Positions 32,465-39,935 of a stretch of 64,000 bases of DNA are shown here, piece by piece (the stretch's first letter is position 1; each line of letters starts with the position of its first letter). The position numbers and the translations under genes are program-made. The notes under the pieces are model-generated. The model saw only the letters and a list, made by a program, of their open reading frames with translations. It was not told the origin of the DNA and ran no database searches. Origin of the DNA: Polynucleobacter sp. UB-Piko-W3 (lineage in GTDB: Bacteria > Pseudomonadota > Gammaproteobacteria > Burkholderiales > Burkholderiaceae); the NCBI RefSeq assembly GCF_018881635.1, contig NZ_JACVPY010000002.1, positions 767,545 to 831,544 of the forward strand, written 5' to 3'.

Positions 32465-34015
32465 TTATGGGGTCATTTGAGCATTTAATTTGGCCTGACT
32501 GGGATCATGCAACTTATTTAAGGCTGCTAAATAAGCCTTAGCAGAGGCAGCAATAATGTCTGGGTCTGTACCAACACCATTCACAATGCGTCCACCTTTA
32601 GCCAAACGGACTGTTACCTCACCCTGAGATTGGGTGCCAGAGGTAATCGCATTGACTGAATAGAGCAATTGTTCTGCCCCGCTCTGAGCGATTCCTTCAA
32701 TGGCATTTAAGCTGGCATCCACTGGCCCATTGCCTTCAGCCTCTGAACTCACCTCTTTATCACCCATGCGGAACGTAACGCGTGACTTAGGGCGCTCACC
32801 TGTTTCAGAATGCTGGCTCAAAGAGATAAAGTGATAATGTTCACCCTCTTCTGCAGCTGCAGAATCAGACATGATGGCGATGATGTCTTCATCAAAAATC
32901 TCGGACTTTTGATCGGCTAAGGCTTTGAAACGAGCGAATGCTTCGTTGAGCTCCTTTTCAGCCTCAATCGTAATGCCCAATTCTTGTAAGCGTTGCTTAA
33001 AAGCATTACGACCCGATAACTTGCCCAAGACAATCTTATTGGTAGACCAGCCCACATCTTCTGCGCGCATAATTTCATAGGTCTCACGATTCTTCAAAAT
33101 ACCATCCTGGTGAATGCCAGAGGCGTGGGCAAAAGCATTGGCACCTACTACCGCTTTATTAGGCTGCACTACAAAGCCTGTAATTTGAGAAACCAATTTA
33201 GACGCCGGAACAATTTGACTTGCATCAATGCCGCACACCATATCAAAATAATCCTTACGGGTTCGCAAGGACATCACAATCTCCTCTAAGGCTGTATTAC
33301 CAGCACGCTCACCTAAGCCATTGATGGTGCACTCGATCTGACGAGCTCCACCTATTTTTACGCCTGCCAACGAATTGGCAACCGCCATACCTAAATCATT
33401 GTGGCAATGCACTGACCAGATTGCTTTATCCGAATTAGGAACGCGAGTACGTAAGGTCTTGATGAACTCACCATACAACTCTGGAGTGGCATAACCTACC
33501 GTATCCGGAATGTTAATGGTGGTAGCACCCTCATTAATAACACCTTCAACAACTCTGCACAAGAAATCCACCTCTGAGCGATAACCATCTTCTGCGGAGA
33601 ACTCAATATCATCAGCCAAATTTCGGGCAAAGCGAATGGAGCGCTTCGATTGCTCCAAGACCTCTTCGGGGGACATGCGCAATTTGACTGCCATATGCAA
33701 TGGGCTAGTTGCCAAGAATGCATGAATACGTTTGGCTTTGGCAGCTTTCAAGGCGTCAGACGCACGCGTAATATCTTTTTCATTGGCTCTTGCCAATGAA
33801 CAGACGATGGAGTCTTTAATGGCTGCAGCTACTGCAGAAATAGCCTGAAAGTCACCTTCGGAGCTAGCAGCAAATCCTGCCTCAATCACATCGACCTTAA
33901 GACGCTCTAATTGACGGGCAATTCGAACCTTTTCATCCTTGGTCATTGAAGCGCCAGGGGATTGCTCACCATCGCGTAAGGTGGTGTCAAAAATGATTAC
34001 TTTATCGCTCATCAC
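32465..34015 (-). CDS. leuA: 2-isopropylmalate synthase
   Basis: LeuA condenses 2-oxoisovalerate with acetyl-CoA in the first committed step of leucine synthesis and is feedback-inhibited by leucine. The 516 residues open with the metal/substrate motif [16 protein letters not shown], include the metal ligands [13 protein letters not shown], and then [13 protein letters not shown]. The C-terminal LeuA dimer regulatory domain (about 390-500) ends with [20 protein letters not shown]. The length fits the bacterial type. A leucine-rich leader ORF and terminator upstream imply attenuation. No leuBCD genes are nearby. Confidence 0.96.
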
Positions 34016-34064
34016 TACTCTCCAGTTTGGAATACTCTAATAATAATTAGTCAATTTGAATCTG

Positions 34065-34094
34065 AAAAACAAAAACCCCAGCAATTAGCTGGGG
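34065..34094 (-). terminator. Attenuator terminator in the leuA leader
   Basis: On the minus strand the 7-base-pair GC-rich stem CCCCAGC / GCTGGGG (34094-34088 with 34082-34076) closes a five-base loop and is followed by TTTTTGTTTTT. It lies about 50 bases before the leuA start and 40 bases after the leader-peptide stop. Its 5' arm can instead pair with 34149-34155, inside the leader ORF, giving a mutually exclusive antiterminator. It would also stop read-through from pssA. Confidence 0.85.
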
Positions 34095-34135
34095 CTGGTA
34101 TGTGGTGGTTAATGAATTATTTTGATCTCATCAAC

Positions 34136-34213
34136 TCAGGCCTTACCCGCCCCAAGCTTTAGGCTTAGTGCTAGCAGAAGGAGACCTGTTAAAGGTGAGA
34201 AATTGATCAACAT
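34136..34213 (-). CDS. leuA leader peptide (25 residues, leucine-rich)
   Basis: A 26-codon ATG-to-TGA frame lies between pssA and leuA. Nine of its 25 residues are leucine, with four in a row at residues 11-14 and more at 2, 8, 16, 18 and 20 (TGLLLLALSLKLGAGKA at the end). This is the hallmark of a ribosome-stalling leader controlling leucine synthesis. The Leu run lies just upstream of a segment (34149-34155) able to pair with the terminator's first arm, as attenuation requires. I see no Shine-Dalgarno. A TATATT box ends 7 bases before the ATG, so the peptide might be translated from a leaderless mRNA. Confidence 0.8.
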   Translation of the reverse strand: MLINFSPLTGLLLLALSLKLGAGKA

Positions 34214-34219
34214 GCAATC

Positions 34220-34225
34220 AATATA
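34220..34225 (-). promoter_or_regulatory. Possible -10 box for the leuA leader transcript
   Basis: TATATT on the minus strand, within 20 bases after the pssA stop, would place transcription start close to or at the leader ATG (34213). The -35 region is poor (TAGCTA or TTAGCT), so confidence is limited. Confidence 0.35.
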
Positions 34226-34241
34226 CCCGAAAATTCTAGAA

Positions 34242-35105
34242 TTAGCTAAAACGCCTACCGCTGAAGTGCTCCCAGGCCCAAATCACATAGCCAGAGATCG
34301 AATACACGACAAAAACTCCGAATAAGGTCAAGGGCGGATTAGAGGAGATGAGTACGAAGGTCAAAATCATCAAGACCATCACGCCAAATGGCACACGGTA
34401 GCGGACATCTAAGGCTTTGCCACTATAAAAACGAGCATTAGAGACCATGGTTAAGCCAGCATAAACTGCAATGAAGAAGGTAACCCAAGGAATAGCGGTA
34501 TCGCGCACTGGGATCTTGTTGTCATCCGCTAGCCATATAAACCCAGCCATTAAGGAGCCAGCCGCCGGACTTGGCAAGCCTTGGAAGAATTTCTTATCAA
34601 CTACTCCAGTATTCACATTGAAACGTGCCAAGCGCAAAGCAGCGCCAGCACAATAAGTAAATGCTGCTAACCAGCCCCATTTACCCAAATCTTTTAAAGC
34701 CCACTCATAAGCCACGAGAGCTGGTGCTACACCAAATGACACCATATCGGCTAGTGAGTCATATTGCTCACCAAAAGCACTTTGGGTATTGGTCATACGA
34801 GCCACTCGGCCATCCATGCCATCTAATACCAAAGAGGCAAAGATCGCAATCGCAGCAACTTCAAACTGATGGTTCATCGCATTCACGATCGCAAAGAAAC
34901 CACAAAACAAGGCCGCAGTAGTGAATGCATTCGGAAGTAAATAAATTCCCTTGCTACGCAAGCGAGGTTTTGGAGGATGCAGTTCTTCTACTTCGTAATC
35001 AACACCCTCACCTACTTCATTCGCCCAGTCATTTAGCGAGCGATCTGAGCGGGAGTGGTTTAGTCGACTACGATCGATGCGTCCACGACGGCGAAATGTT
35101 GGCAA
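34242..35105 (-). CDS. pssA: CDP-diacylglycerol-serine O-phosphatidyltransferase
   Basis: PssA makes phosphatidylserine from CDP-diacylglycerol and serine in the inner membrane. The 287 residues contain the CDP-alcohol phosphotransferase signature in full: DGRVAR, then eight residues, G, three residues, D, three residues, D (about residues 95-119). About six to eight helices follow. An unusual feature is a hydrophilic Arg-rich N-terminal extension of about 50 residues (MPTFRRRGRIDRSRLNHSRS), seen also in some Burkholderiales. The psd gene lies 26 bases upstream, giving consecutive steps to phosphatidylethanolamine. Confidence 0.93.
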   Translation of the reverse strand: MPTFRRRGRIDRSRLNHSRSDRSLNDWANEVGEGVDYEVEELHPPKPRLRSKGIYLLPNAFTTAALFCGFFAIVNAMNHQFEVAAIAIFASLVLDGMDGRVARMTNTQSAFGEQYDSLADMVSFGVAPALVAYEWALKDLGKWGWLAAFTYCAGAALRLARFNVNTGVVDKKFFQGLPSPAAGSLMAGFIWLADDNKIPVRDTAIPWVTFFIAVYAGLTMVSNARFYSGKALDVRYRVPFGVMVLMILTFVLISSNPPLTLFGVFVVYSISGYVIWAWEHFSGRRFS

Positions 35106-39173: not shown

Positions 39174-39365
39174 TTTCTTTCGTCCTTTGCAATTTTCGGC
39201 AAAAAATTGTTTGGTCTGTTCTATCTCTTGCTTATGGCCCGAGTTCGAACGGCGCTGCTACCGGAAAAACCACTTCGTAAATGAGAATCTAGGTAGTAAG
39301 CCTTATATTCTATAGCAATCCCCTAAAATAGCCCAATTCTTACGGATTCAGGTCTAATTCATCGC
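39174..39365. promoter_or_regulatory. Divergent region between ilvB and the ECF sigma gene
   Basis: These 192 bases must carry promoters for both directions. In the ilvB direction the leader contains an AT-rich 7-base-pair hairpin (CAATTTT / AAAATTG, about 39188-39208) ending just before the ilvB Shine-Dalgarno. Further up is a GC-rich stretch (39235-39268) with a CCG-TTCGAACT-CGG dyad. No ATG-started leader peptide rich in Val, Leu or Ile was found. The T/A-rich part near 39300-39335 holds several TATA-like boxes in both orientations. Confidence 0.4.
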
Positions 39366-39935
39366 ATGGCATCAGCCCAAGAACTATCTGATTTTCTGAG
39401 CAGCATTGAGAAGCGCGCATTTAAGCAAGCGATCTATGCCGTCCGTGATGAAGACGCCGCCTTAGACATTGTTCAAGACGCCATGATCAAGTTGGCAGAA
39501 AAATACGGCGATAGGCCAGCTGCTGAACTTCCGCTGGTTTTCACTAGAATTTTGCAAAACCGCATTCATGACTGGTTTAGGCGCCAAAAGGTCCGAAATG
39601 CCTGGGTCACCCTGTTTTCAAACATGGGTAAGAAAACCGATGAAAACGATGATTTTGACCCTTTAGAGTCACTTTCAGCTCCAGACGACAGTGAAATTCA
39701 CCAAGATGGGGCTCAAAAGCTTGAACAGAGTCAGCTTTTACAGGCTTTGGAGTCAGAAATTGCTAAATTACCTGTACGTCAACGAGAAGCCTTCCTGATG
39801 CGTTATTGGGATGAGCTAAGTATTACTGAGACCGCTAAAGCAATGAGTTGCAGTGAAGGAAGTGTCAAAACCCATTGTTCTAGAGCCACACAAACCCTAG
39901 CTAAAGCATTGAAATTAAAAGGAATTACTCTGTGA
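39366..39935 (+). CDS. ECF-type RNA polymerase sigma factor
   Basis: The 189-residue protein has sigma region 2 (AVRDEDAALDIVQDAMIKLA, then TRILQNRIHDWFRRQK; about residues 17-77) and sigma region 4 (LPVRQREAFLMRYWDELSI and an HTH with CSEGSVKTHCSRA; about 130-180). An acidic linker of about 50 residues joins them. It lacks region 3, as ECF sigmas do. The following gene (DUF3619) starts inside its stop codon and encodes a single-pass membrane protein, an arrangement that recalls sigma/anti-sigma pairs. Promoter specificity is unknown. Confidence 0.88.
   Translation: MASAQELSDFLSSIEKRAFKQAIYAVRDEDAALDIVQDAMIKLAEKYGDRPAAELPLVFTRILQNRIHDWFRRQKVRNAWVTLFSNMGKKTDENDDFDPLESLSAPDDSEIHQDGAQKLEQSQLLQALESEIAKLPVRQREAFLMRYWDELSITETAKAMSCSEGSVKTHCSRATQTLAKALKLKGITL

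Follow-up and report, generated by a model that had tools for sequence, protein, structure and literature searches.

In the leuABCD operons of Escherichia coli and Salmonella, the genes are preceded by the leucine attenuator leuL (Rfam RF00512), in which a leader peptide with Leu codons, a terminator and an alternative pairing are placed in front of leuA; the E. coli leader peptide is reported to have 28 residues, 4 of them Leu (PMC6123439). In Epsilonproteobacteria, the reported LeuL candidates have a leader ORF upstream of leuABCD that contains rare Leu codons, and their RNA ends soon after the leader stop (PMC3847290). When mutated, similar leader structures before ilvB and leuA in Streptomyces coelicolor reportedly did not act as classical attenuators (PMC1262725). 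According to a comparative survey of 2013 that was based on Rfam motifs, amino-acid attenuators possibly arose in the gamma-proteobacteria and were transferred very rarely (PMC3766115). Within the literature that we searched, which excludes supplements, a 2004 survey of proteobacterial attenuation and most subscription papers, no leu attenuator was described for Polynucleobacter, Cupriavidus, Ralstonia or Burkholderia. The leuA region of Polynucleobacter sp. UB-Piko-W3 shares with the enterobacterial system the Leu-codon leader, the terminator and the alternative pairing before leuA.

The region lies in a stretch of 64,000 nucleotides (the window), in which leuA occupies 32465–34012 on the minus strand, with its ATG at 34012, and is assigned to 2-isopropylmalate synthase by the NCBIfam equivalog NF002087 (score 884.6 bits, cut-off 729). 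The hexamer GGAGAG at 34018–34023 (minus strand) is its likely ribosome binding site, judged by anti-SD energy. Upstream of the leader and leuA, the same strand carries ilvB, ilvH, ilvC, psd and pssA, the last of which (34242–35105) is the immediate upstream neighbour of the leader. No leader for branched-chain amino acids was seen, on inspection by eye, before ilvB (39174–39365 of the window), and the attenuator thus seems limited to leuA within the ilv cluster. Divergent from ilvB, a plus-strand frame at 39366–39935 resembles, again by eye, an extracytoplasmic-function sigma factor. At gathering score, Rfam reported a single tRNA in the whole 64-kb window, with neither the Leu leader RF00512 nor a T-box; a search up to E 10 over 33950–34300 returned seven weak matches far below their gathering scores, none of them RF00512 or a T-box, and 20 of 160 loci, searched at gathering score, likewise gave no match.

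The leader ORF, MLINFSPLTGLLLLALSLKLGAGKA with its stop codon included, spans 34136–34213 on the minus strand, the strand of all elements described below, and encodes 25 residues with Leu at codons 2, 8, 11–14, 16, 18 and 20. It is conserved in the genus, and it is the 25-residue ATG frame with nine Leu, four of them consecutive, that the initial annotation had placed there. Codons 11–14 (CTC CTT CTG CTA, 34172–34183) form the proposed stalling site, on the grounds of Leu conservation and of a switch point directly behind them, and Leu16 (34168–34166) would add to this site. We further note an element absent from the initial annotation, a −10-like hexamer TATATT at 34220–34225, also conserved in the genus, that ends 6 nt 5' of the leader start codon (34211–34213).

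LeuA was found in 173 of 186 genus genomes, and the upstream region was taken from 116 of them. Counts out of 117 refer to the window plus these 116 further loci, and counts out of 116 leaders refer to those with a recognised terminator, with locus L048 omitted. The leader, the Leu cluster and the terminator are found again across these 116 loci, with few damaged copies: L048 has a shortened terminator, L049 has its leader tail out of frame, and L064 carries a G-to-A change (GGGA) in the antiterminator arm. The leader ATG is kept in 117/117 sequences and the Leu cluster in 110–114 of 116, so that both the frame and its Leu run hold in close relatives. Counted from the stop, Leu is found at positions −14, −13, −12 and −10 in 114, 110, 114 and 114 of the 116 leaders; at least four consecutive Leu occur in 94/116 and at least three in 110/116, with LLL missing in the other six. 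Up to five different codons spell the cluster at a given position (at −12: CTA 87, CTG 13, TTA 9, CTT 4, CTC 1), and such synonymous variation is the signature of selection acting on the residue. Of the 1012 Leu codons in the leaders, 32% are CTA, which is the rarest Leu codon (9.6%) in a set of 37 long window frames. Among 5000 dinucleotide shuffles of the interval, an ATG frame of 12–45 residues contained LLLL in 23 and at least nine Leu in 39; conservation is stronger evidence for the leader than these chance estimates. Downstream of the Leu cluster, the Gly codon of the antiterminator arm is GGG in 113/116 leaders, and the peptide tail LGAGKA is conserved, except that one deep clade has LGSVHA and a terminator arm that has changed correspondingly. 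Eight of the 116 leaders (L017, L033, L040, L041, L045, L063, L067 and L071) carry an in-frame insert of 12 bases (PSGK) at one place.

Behind the leader, an intrinsic terminator hairpin of nine pairs, AGCCCCAGC(taatt)GCTGGGGTT, spans 34096–34074 and is followed by TTTGTTTTT, with the T-tract at 34065–34073. Both the terminator scan and the alignment confirm the GC-rich terminator and T-run that had been noted just before leuA; folding yields the same hairpin, whose positions are paired in 99.8% of alignment cells across 116 genus sequences. The scan over 33900–34600 found two terminator-like sites, where shuffles average 0.7. The competing antiterminator pairs 34158–34144 with 34100–34087 through 13 pairs in two blocks. 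Its 5' arm (34144–34158) lies within the leader ORF and its 3' arm (34087–34100) overlaps the terminator 5' arm, both arms being supported by folding, alignment and an anchored pair count. The initial annotation had proposed a pairing of seven bases here, and UUGGGGC (34155–34149) does pair with GCCCCAG (34095–34089) over seven pairs, one of them U-G; these coordinates stand, whereas the length does not, as they cover a part of the 13-pair structure. A helper hairpin, GUUGAUGA/UCAUUAAC (34108–34135), sits in the antiterminator loop. The stretch 34158–34087 folds better than its shuffles (z −4.1, 0/200). A short hairpin inside the ORF, CUAAGC(CUAAA)GCUUGG at 34152–34168, is also paired in the alignment.

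Across the alignment, the antiterminator and helper hairpin are paired in 89.9% of cells, compared with 19–49% when the partners are slid by 1–3 columns; the helper hairpin alone reaches 91.8%, and six of its eight pairs show two-sided changes. In the MAFFT alignment of the 116, loci L104–L113 are off by one column in the antiterminator, and the automatic count scores most of them as unpaired there. The antiterminator was recounted in 115 sequences with the GGGG and CCCC cores as anchors, a procedure that leans towards structure. In this count, 100 sequences have C-G beside the GGGG/CCCC core, 10 have U-A and 5 have no pair there, and in eight of the ten U-A sequences the far end has also changed, from G-C to A-U; since the U-A loci form one divergent clade (L104–L113), these two-sided changes represent a small number of events. 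GGTA/TACC makes the second block in 93 sequences and xGTG/CACG in 8, and a C-A mismatch beside the core occurs in 14 of the 115. When each of 13 leaders was recoded synonymously 2000 times, the share of recodings whose leader tail paired with the terminator arm at least as well as the observed one was 0.0000–0.18; for the window leader it was 0.09, which alone is not significant. The long 1:2 structure is paired in 82.9% of cells against 29–61% with slid partners, and by parts in 96.0% (inner hairpin CUAAGC/GCUUGG), 84.1% (middle helix) and 69.5% (outer helix). The inner hairpin (34168–34163 with 34157–34152) has two pairs at which A-U is replaced by G-C, one in 14 sequences and the other in 2, and this kept hairpin may serve as a pause or protector element. 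Over the whole 1:2 structure in the 116 sequences, pairs with two-sided changes are no more frequent than in shuffles (6 versus 6.8).

The effect of ribosome position was modelled by folding the RNA downstream of the ribosome codon by codon, cut before the last terminator arm, with the leading edge of the ribosome assumed to be 14 nt away from the first nucleotide of the A-site codon. Among the 116 sequences, the mean antiterminator probability is 0.97–1.00 for every ribosome position up to codon −10, the last clustered Leu, and then falls to 0.45 at −9, 0.21 at −8, 0.12 at −6 and 0.03 at the stop, where the highest single value is 0.36. The Leu cluster is thus located directly before the edge of the switch. 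This position-by-position folding supports the logic of the initial annotation, in which a stall on Leu 11–14 gives the antiterminator and a ribosome at the stop gives the terminator. The maximum falls inside the longest Leu run in only 60/116 sequences, because any earlier ribosome position also permits the antiterminator. Truncated RNA free of ribosomes is mostly in the antiterminator form (mean 0.81; above 0.5 in 96/116), which indicates that a 1:2 protector of the textbook type is weak; on this model transcription would be expected to continue past an untranslated leader, in contrast to the textbook system. Folding to equilibrium with the complete terminator gives a different picture: in the window the terminator stays at 0.73 or above at every ribosome position, and at 0.73–0.85 with the ribosome on the Leu run. 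Among ten sequences folded in this way, most dip at the Leu run, only L091, L095 and L114 go below 0.2, and L115 is unchanged at all ribosome positions. Since equilibrium folding ignores co-transcriptional switching, the truncated RNA was folded instead, and the preference for the terminator at equilibrium means that the attenuation model works only if the antiterminator is made before the terminator.

A covariance model of the genus element has one strong match in its own genome, at leuA. It was searched against 200 genomes sampled from the family and 200 from the order; the two sets overlap and contain members of the genus. In the family sample 24 genomes were matched, of which 22 are genus members with one strong match each, next to leuA, and the other two are weak (28.7 and 27.8 bits); outside the genus, the order sample gave six matches of at most 34.3 bits, and the Cupriavidus/Ralstonia-type genomes of the family sample were unmatched by this model. 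Weak extra matches (29.1–37.1 bits) at five genus places, including G136:C5:900232–900349 and G002:C1:1386205–1386321, are perhaps plain terminators.

A terminator pattern of the Cupriavidus/Ralstonia type retrieved 49 stretches titled Cupriavidus, Ralstonia or Burkholderiaceae bacterium. In 48 of them a leader and box are present, with a spacing of 7 nt in 47 and 6 nt in one, and the 49th has just 31 bases available upstream; leuA follows in 47 of the 49, and the other two end before it. Nineteen loci of this type, chosen for having both parts, were folded. All 19 carry CTACTA and a geometry like that of Polynucleobacter with a different sequence, and they repeat the use of the ORF itself as an antiterminator arm, the "direct" pairing described in the initial annotation and borne out here. 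A ribosome placed at the second CTA of CTACTA gives an antiterminator probability of 0.56–0.99; one codon further the probability is at most 0.28 in 16/19 (L118 0.84, L119 0.43, L161 0.54), and at the stop at most 0.27 in 17/19 (L119 0.46, L166 0.53). In L124 and L167 the probability rises again between CTACTA and the stop.

Among 45 other loci of the family and order, 23 have a box 6–8 nt before a frame of 15–50 codons, where shuffles give a mean of 0.1, and the remaining 22 lack such a pair. The mean Leu share of the 23 frames is 0.23 (range 0.06–0.41), and the low end of this range indicates that not all of them are leucine leaders. A terminator scan behind 19 of the 23 found a candidate in L150 only. 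In loci L143, L144, L146, L148, L149, L153 and L154 the leaders, predicted to be leaderless, end in LLLRPAR or a similar motif; no terminator was found behind them, and four of these loci (L143, L144, L146 and L149) have a C-rich stretch close behind the leader stop. Such leaders may perhaps act through Rho-dependent or translational control. In L117, L131, L139, L140 and L142, a frame that by eye resembles pssA ends 22–55 nt before leuA, so that a leader would not fit; the genome of L117 has, among those compared outside the genus, the LeuA N-terminus most similar to that of the window.

Several parts are observed directly: the leader with its clustered Leu codons, two pairings that exclude each other, the conservation of these elements, and a constant distance from the box to the ATG. 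We consider it very probable that together they form an attenuator of leuA transcription that works through the ribosome and responds to charged tRNA-Leu, a leaderless start included. RNA polymerase would start at the A of the leader ATG (34213), such that the ribosome would have to begin on a leaderless 5' AUG. When leucine is plentiful, folding suggests that the ribosome would reach the stop and cover the in-ORF arm (34158–34144), whereupon the terminator at 34096–34074 would form and transcription would end before leuA. When leucine is scarce, the ribosome would stall at Leu codons 11–14 and 16 and leave the in-ORF arm free, which could then pair with 34100–34087 before the last terminator arm is made, and read-through into leuA would result.

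The leaderless part of this proposal comes from the region around the leader start. TATANT is found 6–9 nt 5' of the leader ATG in 117/117 genus sequences (6 nt in 105, 7 nt in 9, 8 nt in 2 and 9 nt in 1 for the first match per sequence; 101, 10, 1 and 5 for the last match), and the spacing is 6–8 nt in the other box-bearing loci. Control ATGs have a box 5–9 nt upstream in 5/848 cases in genus sequences and in 1/663 in 64 other loci, and shuffles give a comparable box and frame in a mean of 2.5 of 117 sequences. In the window, the anti-SD energy is −3.8 before the leader ATG versus −6.8 before the leuA ATG, and values of −4 or lower are reached by just 22% of leader starts, compared with 16% of random places and 98% of leuA starts. 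This fixed spacing, together with the scarcity of low anti-SD energies, suggests that transcription most likely starts at the A of the ATG and that the leader mRNA is leaderless. Leaderless mRNAs have been reported in Burkholderia cenocepacia, with a promoter motif directly upstream (PMC4603805), and in Cupriavidus metallidurans (PMC7563307); the main texts of these two reports do not mention leuA. The same attenuator could instead be carried on a longer RNA, begun upstream or read through from pssA, where coupling or a weak ribosome binding site would allow the leader to be translated. The position of the leader behind ilvB-ilvH-ilvC-psd-pssA on the same strand would allow such read-through RNA, the mean anti-SD energy before the leader ATG (−3.69) shows mild pairing relative to random places (−1.69), and a consensus −35 is missing from most main-clade boxes: the window has none of consensus type for the leader box, and a consensus-like −35 accompanies only 27/116 boxes. 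The constancy of the box spacing within and beyond the genus and the scarcity of low anti-SD energies argue against this arrangement, which we regard as unlikely. A promoter scan over 33900–34600 found one consensus site against 1.4 expected by chance; it lies at 34068–34040 (minus strand), 3' of the terminator, has a counterpart in only 9/116 sequences, the window included, and where present could feed leuA past the attenuator.

It is highly improbable that the region merely separates two operons, with a Leu-rich frame there by chance and no leucine control. A terminator alone would suffice to part pssA from leuA, and an LLLL frame can arise by chance at the shuffle frequency given above, but chance does not account for Leu residues kept through synonymous changes, a constrained in-ORF arm, two-sided changes in the antiterminator, a switch point right behind the Leu cluster, or the geometry shared with Cupriavidus/Ralstonia. 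It also appears quite unlikely that the attenuated short RNA or its encoded peptide has a function in trans that would maintain part of the conservation. Such a function has a reported precedent in rnTrpL/peTrpL of Sinorhizobium meliloti, an attenuator RNA starting with ATG that acts in trans (PMC7298713), and the conserved tail LGAGKA exceeds what Leu sensing needs; RNA pairing, however, explains the tail, and the LGSVHA tail of the deep clade is matched by changes in the terminator arm.

Compared with enterobacterial leuL, the Polynucleobacter element has no Rfam match, is predicted to be leaderless, places its antiterminator arm in the ORF and lies behind pssA in the ilv cluster. The leaderless, Leu-rich leader reported before leuA in Streptomyces lividans, where leuL precedes leuA and leuS (PMC8079986), resembles what is predicted here, whereas the actinobacterial leuA LEU element is described as being without a typical terminator and as having a Leu run that pairs with the leuA ribosome binding site and a possible pseudoknot above (PMC1262725), in place of the terminator and competing antiterminator of the present locus. 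Similarly, the reported 5' end of S. meliloti trpL coincides with its leader ATG (PMC7298713), as is predicted here, though that system concerns tryptophan, another gene and another sequence. The epsilonproteobacterial LeuL candidates were sought and found with a ribosome binding site (PMC3847290), unlike the predicted leaderless leader in Polynucleobacter.

The proposed switch is of a well-known kind; new is the −10-like box so close to the ATG that a leaderless leader is predicted. Relatives repeat the design with a different sequence. Whether this extends to leaderless leucine attenuators throughout the Burkholderiales is, in our judgement, evenly balanced. In such systems the promoter would fire at the leader AUG, sensing would be confined to ribosomes on a bare 5' AUG, so that read-through RNA from upstream ilv genes would escape it. 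Polynucleobacter and Cupriavidus/Ralstonia would have different terminator and antiterminator sequences in one geometry, and other lineages would retain a leaderless leader that lacks an intrinsic terminator and would depend on a different output. If the leader is indeed leaderless, such loci provide a natural setting in which to ask how ribosomes that initiate without a Shine-Dalgarno sequence match the pace of RNA polymerase, as attenuation requires. A predicted leucine attenuator that Rfam does not detect in the window, recurring across the sampled part of one beta-proteobacterial genus and with a counterpart in Cupriavidus/Ralstonia, also stands in contrast to the reported suggestion of a gamma-proteobacterial origin of amino-acid attenuators with very few transfers.
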